Positions 575 to 33,030 of a stretch of 33,030 bases of DNA are shown piece by piece. The notes under the pieces are model-generated. The model had not been told where the DNA came from and searched no databases. It worked only from the letters and a program-made list of their open reading frames with translations. Origin of the DNA: Planctomycetaceae bacterium (lineage in GTDB: Bacteria > Planctomycetota > Planctomycetia > Planctomycetales > Planctomycetaceae); contig WFTL01000128.1 of NCBI GenBank assembly GCA_015485495.1, forward strand, positions 1 through 33,030, written 5' to 3'. Made by a program: the position numbers and the translations under genes. Each line of letters opens with the position of its first letter. Positions within the stretch are counted from its first letter, which is position 1.

Positions 575-1219
575 ATGAAGATGTCATTCACTGTCATCGC
601 TCTGACAGTCACACTGTTCACCACCGGATGCGGCCGCGAACACACCGGCGGAGTGGCGGTGGTGGATCTGGATCGAGTAGCCAAAGCACTTGGCCGCGAT
701 GCCGCGATCCTGCAGCAGCTCAAACAGCAGGAACTCGATCTCAACCAGAAACTCAGTTCCGTGAAGACGTCCTTCGAAAAGCAGCTTGCAGAGACGTTCG
801 AAGAACTGCCGGAAGAACCGAGTCCGGAAGAGGCTCAAAAACTGCTCAATATGAAACGCAATGCCACGATTCGGCTGGCGAGCTACCAGAAGCAGGCGAC
901 GACTGCTCTGGCACAAATGAAAAGTTCTGCCATTTCCGAGTTTCGGGCGGAAGTCATGCCGCTGGCACGACGGATTGCCAAAGACAAAGGACTGTCCGTC
1001 GTGCTGACCAGCAATGATGCTGTTGTCTTCACGTTCGATGAGTCGGTCAACATCACGGATGAAGTGATCGTCGAACTGAAGAAAACAGCGCCACAGGTCG
1101 GTCCGGTCGCTGCGGCGGAGCCGAGGGCACTGCAGGCGACGCCCGAAACAGCCAGCGCAGCGGAACATGCGTCACCGACGCCTGCCGCGGAGGCGACTGA
1201 CGGGGAAGAGTCTCGCTGA
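575..1219 (+). CDS. OmpH/Skp-like periplasmic chaperone lipoprotein
   Basis: This 214-residue protein starts with a lipoprotein signal (hydrophobic stretch, then L-F-T-T-G-C with Cys at about residue 17). It continues with V-A-V-V-D-L-D-R-V, the usual opening strand of OmpH/Skp proteins. A long charged helical region follows (about residues 40-120, rich in Q, K, E and L), expected to form the coiled-coil tentacles. A closing strand around 'GLSVVLTSNDAVVF' comes next, and then an Ala/Pro/Glu-rich tail. Skp-type proteins hold unfolded outer-membrane proteins in the periplasm. Being a lipoprotein is a variation on soluble Skp. I chose the ATG at 575 because it gives a clean lipoprotein signal and has GGAG ten bases upstream. 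Earlier in-frame Met codons (from 482) would add 31 residues with no signal character. A strong hairpin follows the gene. Confidence 0.8.
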   Translation: MKMSFTVIALTVTLFTTGCGREHTGGVAVVDLDRVAKALGRDAAILQQLKQQELDLNQKLSSVKTSFEKQLAETFEELPEEPSPEEAQKLLNMKRNATIRLASYQKQATTALAQMKSSAISEFRAEVMPLARRIAKDKGLSVVLTSNDAVVFTFDESVNITDEVIVELKKTAPQVGPVAAAEPRALQATPETASAAEHASPTPAAEATDGEESR

Positions 1220-1300
1220 AGAATGCCGGACACCATGTGTTCGCATGCGTGAGCAGGCATTGTCTGCTGGCGGGTGCGGCGTTTCGAACAGGACCACATG

Positions 1301-30907: not shown

Positions 30908-32296
30908 ATGAACAGTTTTCCAGCCGGTGATCGGAACGATGGCTGCTCATGCTGTGATCATCTGCTTCGGCGGATTTCGGAACTGATGCTGTTCCTGCTG
31001 ATCGCTGCCGGCTGCGGCGATGGGTTCCCGGGGACTTCCGGAGACGCCGATCGGGGGACACCGGATTCCGCATCGCCGCAGGATGTGTCCACGTATCCGG
31101 AGTCAGAACAGGTCGCGGAATCCGAACAGGAAGAAGCGTTCGGTCAGGCCTGGGACCCGGGAATGGCAGACGTCACGGGATCGGTGGAAGCCGTTCTGGC
31201 AGGGGGGGCTGTTCCCGGCGACGATTCTGCTGAGCCGGATGCACAGGCGGCAGCCGGGCCGGTTGTCATGCGGCCGGTGACGCTGGAACCCGGGATGGCG
31301 GCGCCTGAACTGGACGTTCTGGAAGTCGTTCACGGGCCGGCATTTTCCGCCACGCCCCGACCGGGACGGATTCGTGTGGTGGAGTTCTGGGCCACCTGGT
31401 GCCGCCCGTCTCAGTTCAGCATCCGGCGGATGCATGAAGTGAAGGAACGGATGGCCCACCTGGTGGAACTGATTGCGATCACCACGGAAGATCCGGAACG
31501 AGTCCGTGAATTTCTGGGGCAGCAGGCTGTGACGGGAGGCACCTGGGGGGAACTGGCGGATTACAGCATCGCCGTCGACCGGGACAGCCGATCGTTCGCG
31601 CGGTACATGGATGCGGCCGGTCAGGAACGGATCCCCTGTGTGTTCGTGACAGATCGCAGCGGACGGATCGCGTGGATCGGCAGTCCTGTGGAGATGGATC
31701 CTGTTCTGGAGCAGATTCGCGACGGGCGCTTCGATCTGGATCGGTCTGTGAGACTGTTTCGGGCCCGTCGGCGGATGATGGCGGCGGCATGGAACGAAGA
31801 CGTCCAGGGAATTCTGGAGGTTCTGAGGGAACTGGCGGAGTTCCGGGAAGATGAGTTTCGGATGCTGCTGATGCAGCTCGAACTGCTTTCCGTGCAGCGG
31901 CTTTATGAAGAATTCGGACAACTCGCCCGGACCGTCATGGCGGATCGTCCGGATGATGCGGCAATGATGAATCACATCGCCTGGACCATTGCGACCGCTC
32001 AGGGACGGGGACGCGACCTGAATCTGGCGATGAGCGCCGCCATGCGGGCCAGCGAAAAGATGGAGCATCGGCACGCGGGGATTCTGGACACGGTGGCCCG
32101 CGTGTTCTATGAGCAGGGAGATGCTGCGGAAGCTTTGAACTGGCAGAAACGGGCTGTCCAGATACAGCCGTACAGTCTGGAACTGCAGTCGACTCTGAGA
32201 TTTTACGAGCGGCAGTTGAATCGACAGGCCGAATCGATCCAGCCGTCCGGCGAAACGTCCGGAACGCCTTCTGAACGAAAAAGCGCGGGGTCATGA
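30908..32296 (+). CDS. Thioredoxin-fold lipoprotein with a C-x-x-S active site and helical C-terminal region
   Basis: This 462-residue protein has a lipoprotein signal (Arg-Arg, then L-M-L-F-L-L-I-A-A-G-C, lipid Cys36). A Glu/Asp/Ser-rich linker runs to about residue 120. A TlpA/redoxin-like domain covers about 128-275. Its active site is W-A-T-W-C-R-P-S (Cys165, Ser168), so the second Cys is lost. Cys244 follows the presumed cis-proline (R-I-P-C-V-F-V-T-D). From 280 on it is helical, including a TPR-like segment ('ILDTVARVFYEQGDAAEALNWQKRAVQIQP'). It likely sits in the periplasm. The start at 30908 keeps basic residues ahead of the hydrophobic core; Met27 would not. It overlaps glutamine synthetase by four bases (ATGA). 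Confidence 0.8.
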   Translation: MNSFPAGDRNDGCSCCDHLLRRISELMLFLLIAAGCGDGFPGTSGDADRGTPDSASPQDVSTYPESEQVAESEQEEAFGQAWDPGMADVTGSVEAVLAGGAVPGDDSAEPDAQAAAGPVVMRPVTLEPGMAAPELDVLEVVHGPAFSATPRPGRIRVVEFWATWCRPSQFSIRRMHEVKERMAHLVELIAITTEDPERVREFLGQQAVTGGTWGELADYSIAVDRDSRSFARYMDAAGQERIPCVFVTDRSGRIAWIGSPVEMDPVLEQIRDGRFDLDRSVRLFRARRRMMAAAWNEDVQGILEVLRELAEFREDEFRMLLMQLELLSVQRLYEEFGQLARTVMADRPDDAAMMNHIAWTIATAQGRGRDLNLAMSAAMRASEKMEHRHAGILDTVARVFYEQGDAAEALNWQKRAVQIQPYSLELQSTLRFYERQLNRQAESIQPSGETSGTPSERKSAGS

Positions 32297-33030
32297 ATCA
32301 TACGGAATTTTCCCCGAGGGAAGTGATTGCTCTGTGTCGCCAGCGGGAGATTCTGGCGATCGATCTGCGATTCACGGATTTCCAGGGCGTCCAGCGGCAC
32401 GTCACGATTCCGGCAGACCAGCTCACCGAAGATCGCTTCGAAGACGGTTTCGGATTCGACGGGTCGTCGATGCGCGGCTGGCAGGCCATTCACGAAAGCG
32501 ACATGCTGATCGTTCCGGATCCCGGCACAGCGTTCGTGGATCCGTTCATGCCGGGGACTCTGGCGGTACTCGGCAACGTACGTGATCCGGTCACGCATCA
32601 GAGTTATCCGCGCGATCCCCGCAGCATCGCCCGCAAGGCAGAAAGTCACATGCTGTCCACGGGAGTGGCCGATCGCGTGGGCATCGGTCCGGAGGTGGAG
32701 TTCTTCGTTTTCGATGCGGTGCGTTTCGACCAGTCGATTCACCGGGCCTTCCATGCGGTGGACAGCCGGGAGGGACAGTGGCAGCAGGGCCACAGGAAGT
32801 CTTCCGGGCACCAGGTGCGCCGGCGCGAAGGATATCTGCCTCTGCCGCCGGCCGACACGCTGATGCCGCTGCGTACGGAAATCATGCAGGCGCTGCAGGA
32901 AAGCGGGGTGGCCACAGAAGGGCATCATCGGGAGGTGGCCACAGCCGGTCAGTGCCAGATCGATCTGGCAGCCGATTCTCTTGTGCGCACCGCCGATCAT
33001 CTGATGCGGCTGAAATACATGGTGCGGAAC
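32293..33030 (+). CDS. glnA: Type I glutamine synthetase, cut by the window edge, with an altered metal-site residue
   Basis: 246 codons are open to the right edge, covering the beta-grasp N-terminal domain and the start of the catalytic domain. Family motifs are clear: G-F-G-F-D-G-S-S-M-R-G-W, I-H-E-S-D-M, 'VPDPGTAFVDPF', G-P-E-V-E-F-F (Glu134/Glu136), 'EGYLPLPPADTL' and H-H-R-E-V-A-T-A-G-Q-C-Q-I-D. In the usual HHHEVATAGQxE segment, the last Glu (n1-metal ligand, Glu220 in enterobacterial numbering) is Gln222 here, and the third His is Arg213. Glutamine synthetase makes glutamine from glutamate, ammonia and ATP; this copy may be altered or act on another substrate. The ATG overlaps the lipoprotein stop (ATGA). 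The adenylylation-site region is outside the window. Confidence 0.9.
   Translation, partial: MNHTEFSPREVIALCRQREILAIDLRFTDFQGVQRHVTIPADQLTEDRFEDGFGFDGSSMRGWQAIHESDMLIVPDPGTAFVDPFMPGTLAVLGNVRDPVTHQSYPRDPRSIARKAESHMLSTGVADRVGIGPEVEFFVFDAVRFDQSIHRAFHAVDSREGQWQQGHRKSSGHQVRRREGYLPLPPADTLMPLRTEIMQALQESGVATEGHHREVATAGQCQIDLAADSLVRTADHLMRLKYMVRN

Follow-up and report, generated by a model that had tools for sequence, protein, structure and literature searches.

Type I Glutamine Synthetases With Changed Metal Ligands, Possibly Freed From Glutamine Synthesis, Recur in Two Planctomycete Families

Introduction

The metal ligands of glutamine synthetase are usually taken as fixed. The DNA analyzed here (the window) is a stretch of 33,030 nucleotides that makes up the entire contig C128 of a draft planctomycete genome (G000; 4.67 Mb, 98% complete). 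It ends within a gene for a type I glutamine synthetase (GSI-1) in which the ligand Glu220 reads Gln. This raises the questions of whether the change is real, whether it stands alone, and what such a protein is kept for. The initial annotation, made from the window only, suggested that the protein may be a paralogue with altered metal use, a non-canonical ligase or a regulatory pseudoenzyme. Residue positions are given throughout in what we take to be the Salmonella GSI numbering.

Results

Catalytic Residues of GSI-1

GSI-1 was found to be the last gene of C128 and is truncated by the contig end, with the remainder located on the minus strand of contig C52 (L001). The open reading frame in the window reads EGHHREVATAGQCQIDL around the changed site, and the features of both contigs are listed in Table 1. 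Of the metal ligands E129, E131, E212, E220, H269, and E357, five are kept in GSI-1 while E220 is Gln. The n1 ligands of this set are presumably E131, E212, and E220, onto which we mapped E141, E223, and E230 of the Helicobacter pylori enzyme. The available text of the H. pylori study names these three residues as the n1 ligands (PMC6076278).

Table 1. Positions of features in the window (C128) and on contig C52.
Feature	Contig	Position	Strand	Remarks
Sulfatase gene	C128	26914..28473		PF00884
412-aa ORF	C128	29547..30785	-	No Pfam match at E 0.001
462-aa protein with AhpC/TSA-Redoxin domain	C128	30908..32296	+	Upstream of GSI-1; ATGA overlap with the GSI-1 start, 32293-32296
GSI-1, 5' half (type I glutamine synthetase, residues 1-246)	C128	32293..33030	+	Pfam PF03951 and PF00120
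Codon 213, CGG, Arg replacing the third His of HHHE	C128	32929..32931	+	Common to both congeners and some ligand-intact relatives
Perfect palindrome, 18 bases	C128	32953..32970		C128/C52 joint; fold-back of the C52 end about it is an assembly artefact
Codon 222, CAG, Gln replacing the n1-metal ligand Glu220	C128	32956..32958	+	Alignment to Salmonella E220
202-aa ORF	C52 (L001)	682..1290	-	ECF sigma factor-like by eye; same strand as and 3' of the glutamine synthetase

The initial annotation had called a Glu to Gln change at the n1 ligand Glu220 and a His to Arg change close to it. Both calls stand, the former being genus-wide and the latter found as H-R-E in both congeners as well. The Arg is by itself uninformative as a sign of changed function, since it was found in 12 of 117 distinct sequences, some of which have all six ligands intact (L007, L060, and L024). 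The 3' half recovered from C52 adds H271R and E327D, also at catalytic positions, and the full-length GSI-1 of the genus thus has three such changes (E220Q, H271R, and E327D). The protein from the window retains E129, E131, E212, H269, E357, D50, N264, R321, R339, R344, R359, and Y397.

The NCBIfam model TIGR00653 (cut-off 429.15 bits) scored the two halves at 234.6 (5') and 333.5 bits (3'), each below the cut-off, and the full-length congener protein L005 at 557.9 bits, above it. The cut-off was also passed by L010 (552.9 bits) and L136 (565.2 bits), each of which has three ligands changed.

The Gln Codon Is Present in Both Congeners

A Gln at codon 222 could also be an artefact of assembly or amplification at the contig end. 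The last 78 bases of C128 (32953-33030) are common to the end of C52 and start with the palindrome, which takes in the C of the Gln codon, and the terminus of C52 is an inverted fold-back of the joint sequence. The fold-back and the palindrome, at the contig break, mark the C128 end as a weak spot of the assembly. Against this, the two congeners (G001 and G002; loci L005 and L006) carry CAG at codon 222 in a different sequence context, together with H-R-E and GQCQ. Their genes are complete and lie on other contigs, and the proteins are 75-76% identical to that of the window over the 5' half. E220Q was thereby found in all three genomes of the genus. Because both congeners carry the same residue we take E220Q to be real; sequencing error at the palindrome is ruled out, and the chance that codon 222 is an artefact is negligible.

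Other Glutamine Synthetases in the Genome and the Family

A PF00120 search of G000 returned a single type I gene, split into two pieces, and one GSII on contig C141, while a GSIII_N search of the same genome gave no match. A second glutamine synthetase is therefore present, but it is not of type I, and the proposed paralogy to a canonical glnA is not supported. The GSII was intact at all 13 catalytic positions read, using a GSII residue numbering that we assume to be correct, and G000 thus possesses in this GSII a credible glutamine synthetase besides GSI-1.

The alternative glutamine synthetases were read as intact in 40 of 40 cases overall. This was so for the GSI-2 of the family of the window (11/11) and for GSII at the 13 positions (15/15; G000 and 14 others), and the GSIII motifs were invariant in 14 of 14 sequences, six of which belong to f3, another family of the same class. 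Further GSI from other families of the class were likewise intact (3/3). The ligand losses are thus not due to sequencing quality or to a general trait of these genomes.

A GSI-type match was obtained in 165 of 170 genomes of the family. Among the relatives with GSI-1, GSII, GSIII or GSI-2 was present in 31 of 35 family genomes, with G013 counted from a fragment that lies where its contig breaks off. All of these were lacking in four genomes, G011, G016, G018, and G029, three of which belong to the seven ligand-changed genomes of this set. G011, G016, and G018 carry TIGR03105-type ligases, and the glutamine synthetase-like proteins of G011 and G016 are otherwise only of this type or unassigned. 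In G029 (99% complete) the sole glutamine synthetase detected was L136, with three metal ligands changed. A rule that ligands change only where another glutamine synthetase is present was consequently discarded, G029, G011, and G016 being exceptions. These exceptions are softened by the TIGR03105 members in G011 and G016 and by the GSII found in congeners of G029 (G270 and G271); an assembly gap may possibly account for the lack of GSII in G029 itself.

Metal Ligands Changed Repeatedly

At least one of the six ligands was found changed in 53 of 192 distinct GSI sequences. These comprised 34 of 120 in the set for the family of the window and 19 of 32 in f3, with none among 11 sequences belonging to the remaining families of the class, 27 non-class sequences and two GSI-2 rows. 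Two or more ligands were changed in 12/120 and 14/32 sequences of the two families, respectively. The set for the family of the window includes named loci (Fuerstiella, Gimesia, Schlesneria, Thalassoglobus, and others) that were placed there by similarity and not by label. The 80 named loci were the best 80 of 571 relatives and the first query sequence was of the Gln220 type, so the sample is non-random and 34/120 is not an unbiased frequency. In a less biased set, consisting of the genus of the window and one genome for each other genus, seven of 35 family genomes were ligand-changed (G018 being read only in part).

From 126 sequences we dropped the partial L040, five GlnA-like rows and then 22 identical rows, and the two halves from C128 and C52 were rejoined as one row. 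The f3 sample of 30 loci and five earlier rows gave 32 distinct sequences. For the same class, the 22 genomes G037-G058 provided a readable GSI in 16 cases, in addition to two copies from G048, and the 27 loci from outside the class were among 30 returned.

On a FastTree phylogeny calculated with the active-site columns removed, the state of any ligand changed at least 19 times, that of E129 alone at least 12 times and that of E220 alone at least 12 times. On a better modelled quick IQ-TREE phylogeny (117 rows) the corresponding minimum counts were 13, 8, and 7; in these parsimony counts loss and regain are indistinguishable. Independent pairs differing in ligand state numbered eight on well-supported branches and 12 on all branches.

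The replacing residues differed widely. In place of E220 we found Q, R, G, S, H, K, A, T, or V. L042/L010 carries D50N, E129R, E212A, E220Q, H271N, and E327G, while L136 carries D50N, E129A, E212S, E220S, N264H, and H271N. The changes in L300, a congener of L136, are E129A, E212G, E220A, and N264Y. In a clade of nine, E129A goes with D50N or D50S, and E129S was found in eight of the 32 f3 rows. With such residues it is hard to see how members like L042/L010 could work as two-metal enzymes. The scale of this pattern, with repeated changes in two families, lay beyond the view of the initial annotation.

Selection and Predicted Fold

A redundant GSI in slow neutral decay, with GSII, GSIII or GSI-2 making the glutamine, would be in agreement with the 31 of 35 genomes that have one of these, with the long branches of some altered rows and with the fewer sigma54-like sites of ligand-changed genes described below. 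We calculated dN/dS (NG86) for pairs at 80-99% identity, excluding 112 saturated or undefined pairs and setting aside 18 mixed pairs (median 0.043). Where both members were ligand-changed the median was 0.043 (range 0.018-0.073) for 41 pairs, many of which come from one clade (D50N/E129A), and where both were ligand-intact it was 0.056 (133 pairs). The congeners L005 and L006 gave dN 0.021, dS 0.84, and dN/dS 0.025. The altered GSI genes have open, full-length frames. By these sequence measures, the altered GSI proteins are selected and not freely decaying.

Residues G265, R321, R344, E357, R359, and Y397 were invariant in all 152 sequences of the two families, while Y397 was Phe in two of the 27 sequences from outside the class. 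Tyr397 is kept in intact GSI as well, and its invariance alone is thus no proof of a new role. The six invariant residues, the full-length frames, the low dN/dS of the ligand-changed pairs and the GSI-type match in nearly all family genomes all speak against neutral decay, which we regard as unlikely.

We modelled L133, a strongly eroded named member and a relative of the protein from the window, with AlphaFold2 using a 39-locus alignment (pLDDT 79.4, pTM 0.85). The best PDB matches of the model in Foldseek were type I glutamine synthetases, with 3ng0 at the top (TM 0.90). L133 is accordingly predicted to have kept the monomer fold despite a lost catalytic site.

GlnE, PII, and the Upstream Regions

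GlnE was found in 58 of 59 genomes, a count that takes in G000, and PII in eight of nine genomes examined. The GlnE gene of G000 lies on contig C21, with both nucleotidyltransferase motifs present, and Y397 is kept in GSI-1 of the same genome. The first Asp of both motifs was kept in all 19 full-length GlnE proteins, seven of which come from ligand-changed genomes (G000, G001, G002, G006, G011, G016, and G043); in the GlnE of G016 another conserved Asp, close to the C-terminal domain, is missing. The C-terminal motif was SD-x-E in all 17 full-length proteins from the family of the window (L156-L170, L172, and L173; 1202-1336 aa) and SD-x-D in L174 and L175 (1074 and 1058 aa), which belong to other families. 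G002 has an extra partial GlnE-like ORF on contig C70 (L171), possibly a contamination or a duplicate.

Sigma54-like sites were searched as TGGYRY-N5-TTGCW, which we take to represent the sigma54 consensus, with at most one mismatch and within 160 bases upstream. Expected counts were derived from random first-order-chain sequence. Among distinct upstream regions of the named genes, a site was found in 28 of 51 ligand-intact (1.15 expected) and two of 19 ligand-changed genes (0.37 expected). Of the tree rows, 106 had a sufficiently long upstream region, and for these the numbers were 40 of 78 intact and two of 28 changed (Fisher 2.8e-5). The comparison of site loss with ligand change in independent pairs gave no significance, the pairs being too few, and a tie between the two was therefore rejected in spite of the strong raw table. 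L042/L133, which is among the most eroded, retains a sigma54-like site, TGGAACACGATTTGCA, at -107. In the 400 bases before the GSI-1 start the best match to the narrower motif TGGCAC-N5-TTGCW has three mismatches. With sites so scarce in the altered genes, a plain role in the nitrogen response is less likely for them.

Neighboring Genes

The initial annotation had pointed to the coupling of GSI-1 to a redox lipoprotein gene as unusual. The overlap of the two genes is real in the window, but a phmmer search (E 1e-4) with the 462-aa AhpC/TSA protein found no relative at 83 related glutamine synthetase loci, whose flanks spanned 1.5 to 5 kb, some being ended by the contig; distant relatives could escape this single query. 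We therefore dropped the lipoprotein as a functional clue and consider the neighborhood incidental. No partner protein, regulon or conserved neighbor was found for the GSI loci.

Discussion

A gene that is kept whole, usually with a normal second glutamine synthetase in the genome, suggests that its product is no longer an ordinary enzyme. In the altered lineages the usual catalysis, or its usual form, seems no longer to be under selection, while the substrate-site arginines and the tyrosine targeted by GlnE still are. As a single account, a GSI pseudoenzyme or near-pseudoenzyme with a regulatory function is the likeliest, the glutamine being made by GSII, GSIII, GSI-2 or another ligase. Here the initial annotation was right to suspect altered metal use or a pseudoenzyme, since the change concerns an n1 ligand, is conserved in the genus and most probably goes with altered or lost catalysis; what finds no support is the paralogue beside a canonical glnA. 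We see about an even chance that these GSI have been freed from glutamine synthesis and now serve a function that is non-catalytic or altered and probably regulatory; both the loss of activity and this function are inferred.

If so, GSI-1 would descend from type I glutamine synthetases of the GlnE-regulated (beta) kind and would have had its active site altered. In the genus of the window the n1 site would be down one of its three carboxylates (E220Q), with E327D at the flap Glu and H271R at the second HxH His in addition, and in G000 GSII would supply the glutamine. A folded protein, presumably oligomeric, would keep a job that needs the substrate-site arginines and the adenylylation tyrosine, and this job would most likely be a regulatory one that GlnE and PII read or write. 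In the two planctomycete families proteins would have been freed from catalysis in this way many times, with differing residues.

Alternatively, the protein may still work as a glutamine synthetase, or as some other gamma-glutamyl ligase, whose metal use or kinetics have changed. The carbonyl of Gln220 would then bind the metal, Arg213 and Arg271 would compensate, and Asp327 would close the flap. The protein from the window keeps five of the six ligands as well as D50, N264, R321, R339, R344, and R359, and since Gln is still a weak metal coordinator, it may be active. Reduced or metal-shifted activity is thus a serious rival for this protein, which has one conservative ligand change. E327D is found in ligand-intact relatives too, the purifying selection agrees with this reading, and the presence of GlnE makes more sense with a target that has remained an enzyme. 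Nine different replacements of E220, with Arg, Lys, Gly, Ala, and Val among them, and the joint change of E220 with E129 or E212 that several lineages show do not look like one new chemistry. On balance we regard a still-working enzyme as possible but rather improbable.

A more specific form of the regulatory reading can be put forward tentatively, and we would sooner doubt than assert it. In both families a GSI controlled by GlnE and PII would repeatedly have become a non-catalytic scaffold for nitrogen status, in keeping with the 13 to 19 ligand-state changes counted by parsimony. This scaffold would bind glutamate or nucleotide, be adenylylated and signal via partners, while GSII, GSIII or a second GSI makes the glutamine.

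A natural series of ligand changes, under selection and with GlnE and PII kept, would allow a job of bacterial GSI apart from catalysis to be tested. There is also a practical consequence: as the curated GlnA model accepts sequences with three ligands changed (L010 and L136), genomes and metagenomes of planctomycetes can be given wrong nitrogen-assimilation calls.

Compared to GSI-beta GlnA (TIGR00653), the proteins are alike in sequence family, substrate-site arginines, Tyr397 and the presence of GlnE in the genome, and in fold as modelled for the relative L133. They differ in that E220 is Gln in the genus of the window, with H271R and E327D in addition, and in that other lineages have up to three ligands changed along with D50 and E327. 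A GSI acting as nitrogen sensor is described for Bacillus subtilis, where the accessible part of the report has the feedback-inhibited enzyme bind GlnR (PMC10799026); unlike the present case, that system depends on product feedback inhibition of an alpha-type enzyme without adenylylation. For a deep-sea planctomycete, upregulation of glutamine synthetase genes with nitrate or ammonium is stated in the portion of the article available (PMC10945688). In a literature search covering titles and abstract openings we found no bacterial glutamine synthetase pseudoenzyme, no glutamine synthetase E220 mutant and no adenylylation of a planctomycete glutamine synthetase, and within that scope a bacterial, recurrent and GlnE-retaining case was found to have no precedent.

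Two systems come closest. Lengsin, the pseudo-glutamine synthetase of the vertebrate lens, is according to the accessible text a GSI by descent, dodecameric and not catalytically active, and a remnant from where GSII took over (PMC2667176). It concerns one eukaryotic lineage and has a changed N-terminal region, whereas the planctomycete proteins are bacterial, arose repeatedly, retain GlnE and have no added domain that we could see. Point mutants of the Fusarium fujikuroi glutamine synthetase that are enzymatically dead are described, in the part of the paper at hand, as keeping regulatory functions (PMC3829961). They are alike in that regulation is separable from catalysis, and unlike in being laboratory-made variants of a fungal enzyme, where the planctomycete changes are natural and recurrent. 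As far as the available texts go, lengsin and the Fusarium mutants together indicate that each step of the proposed release from catalysis can happen.
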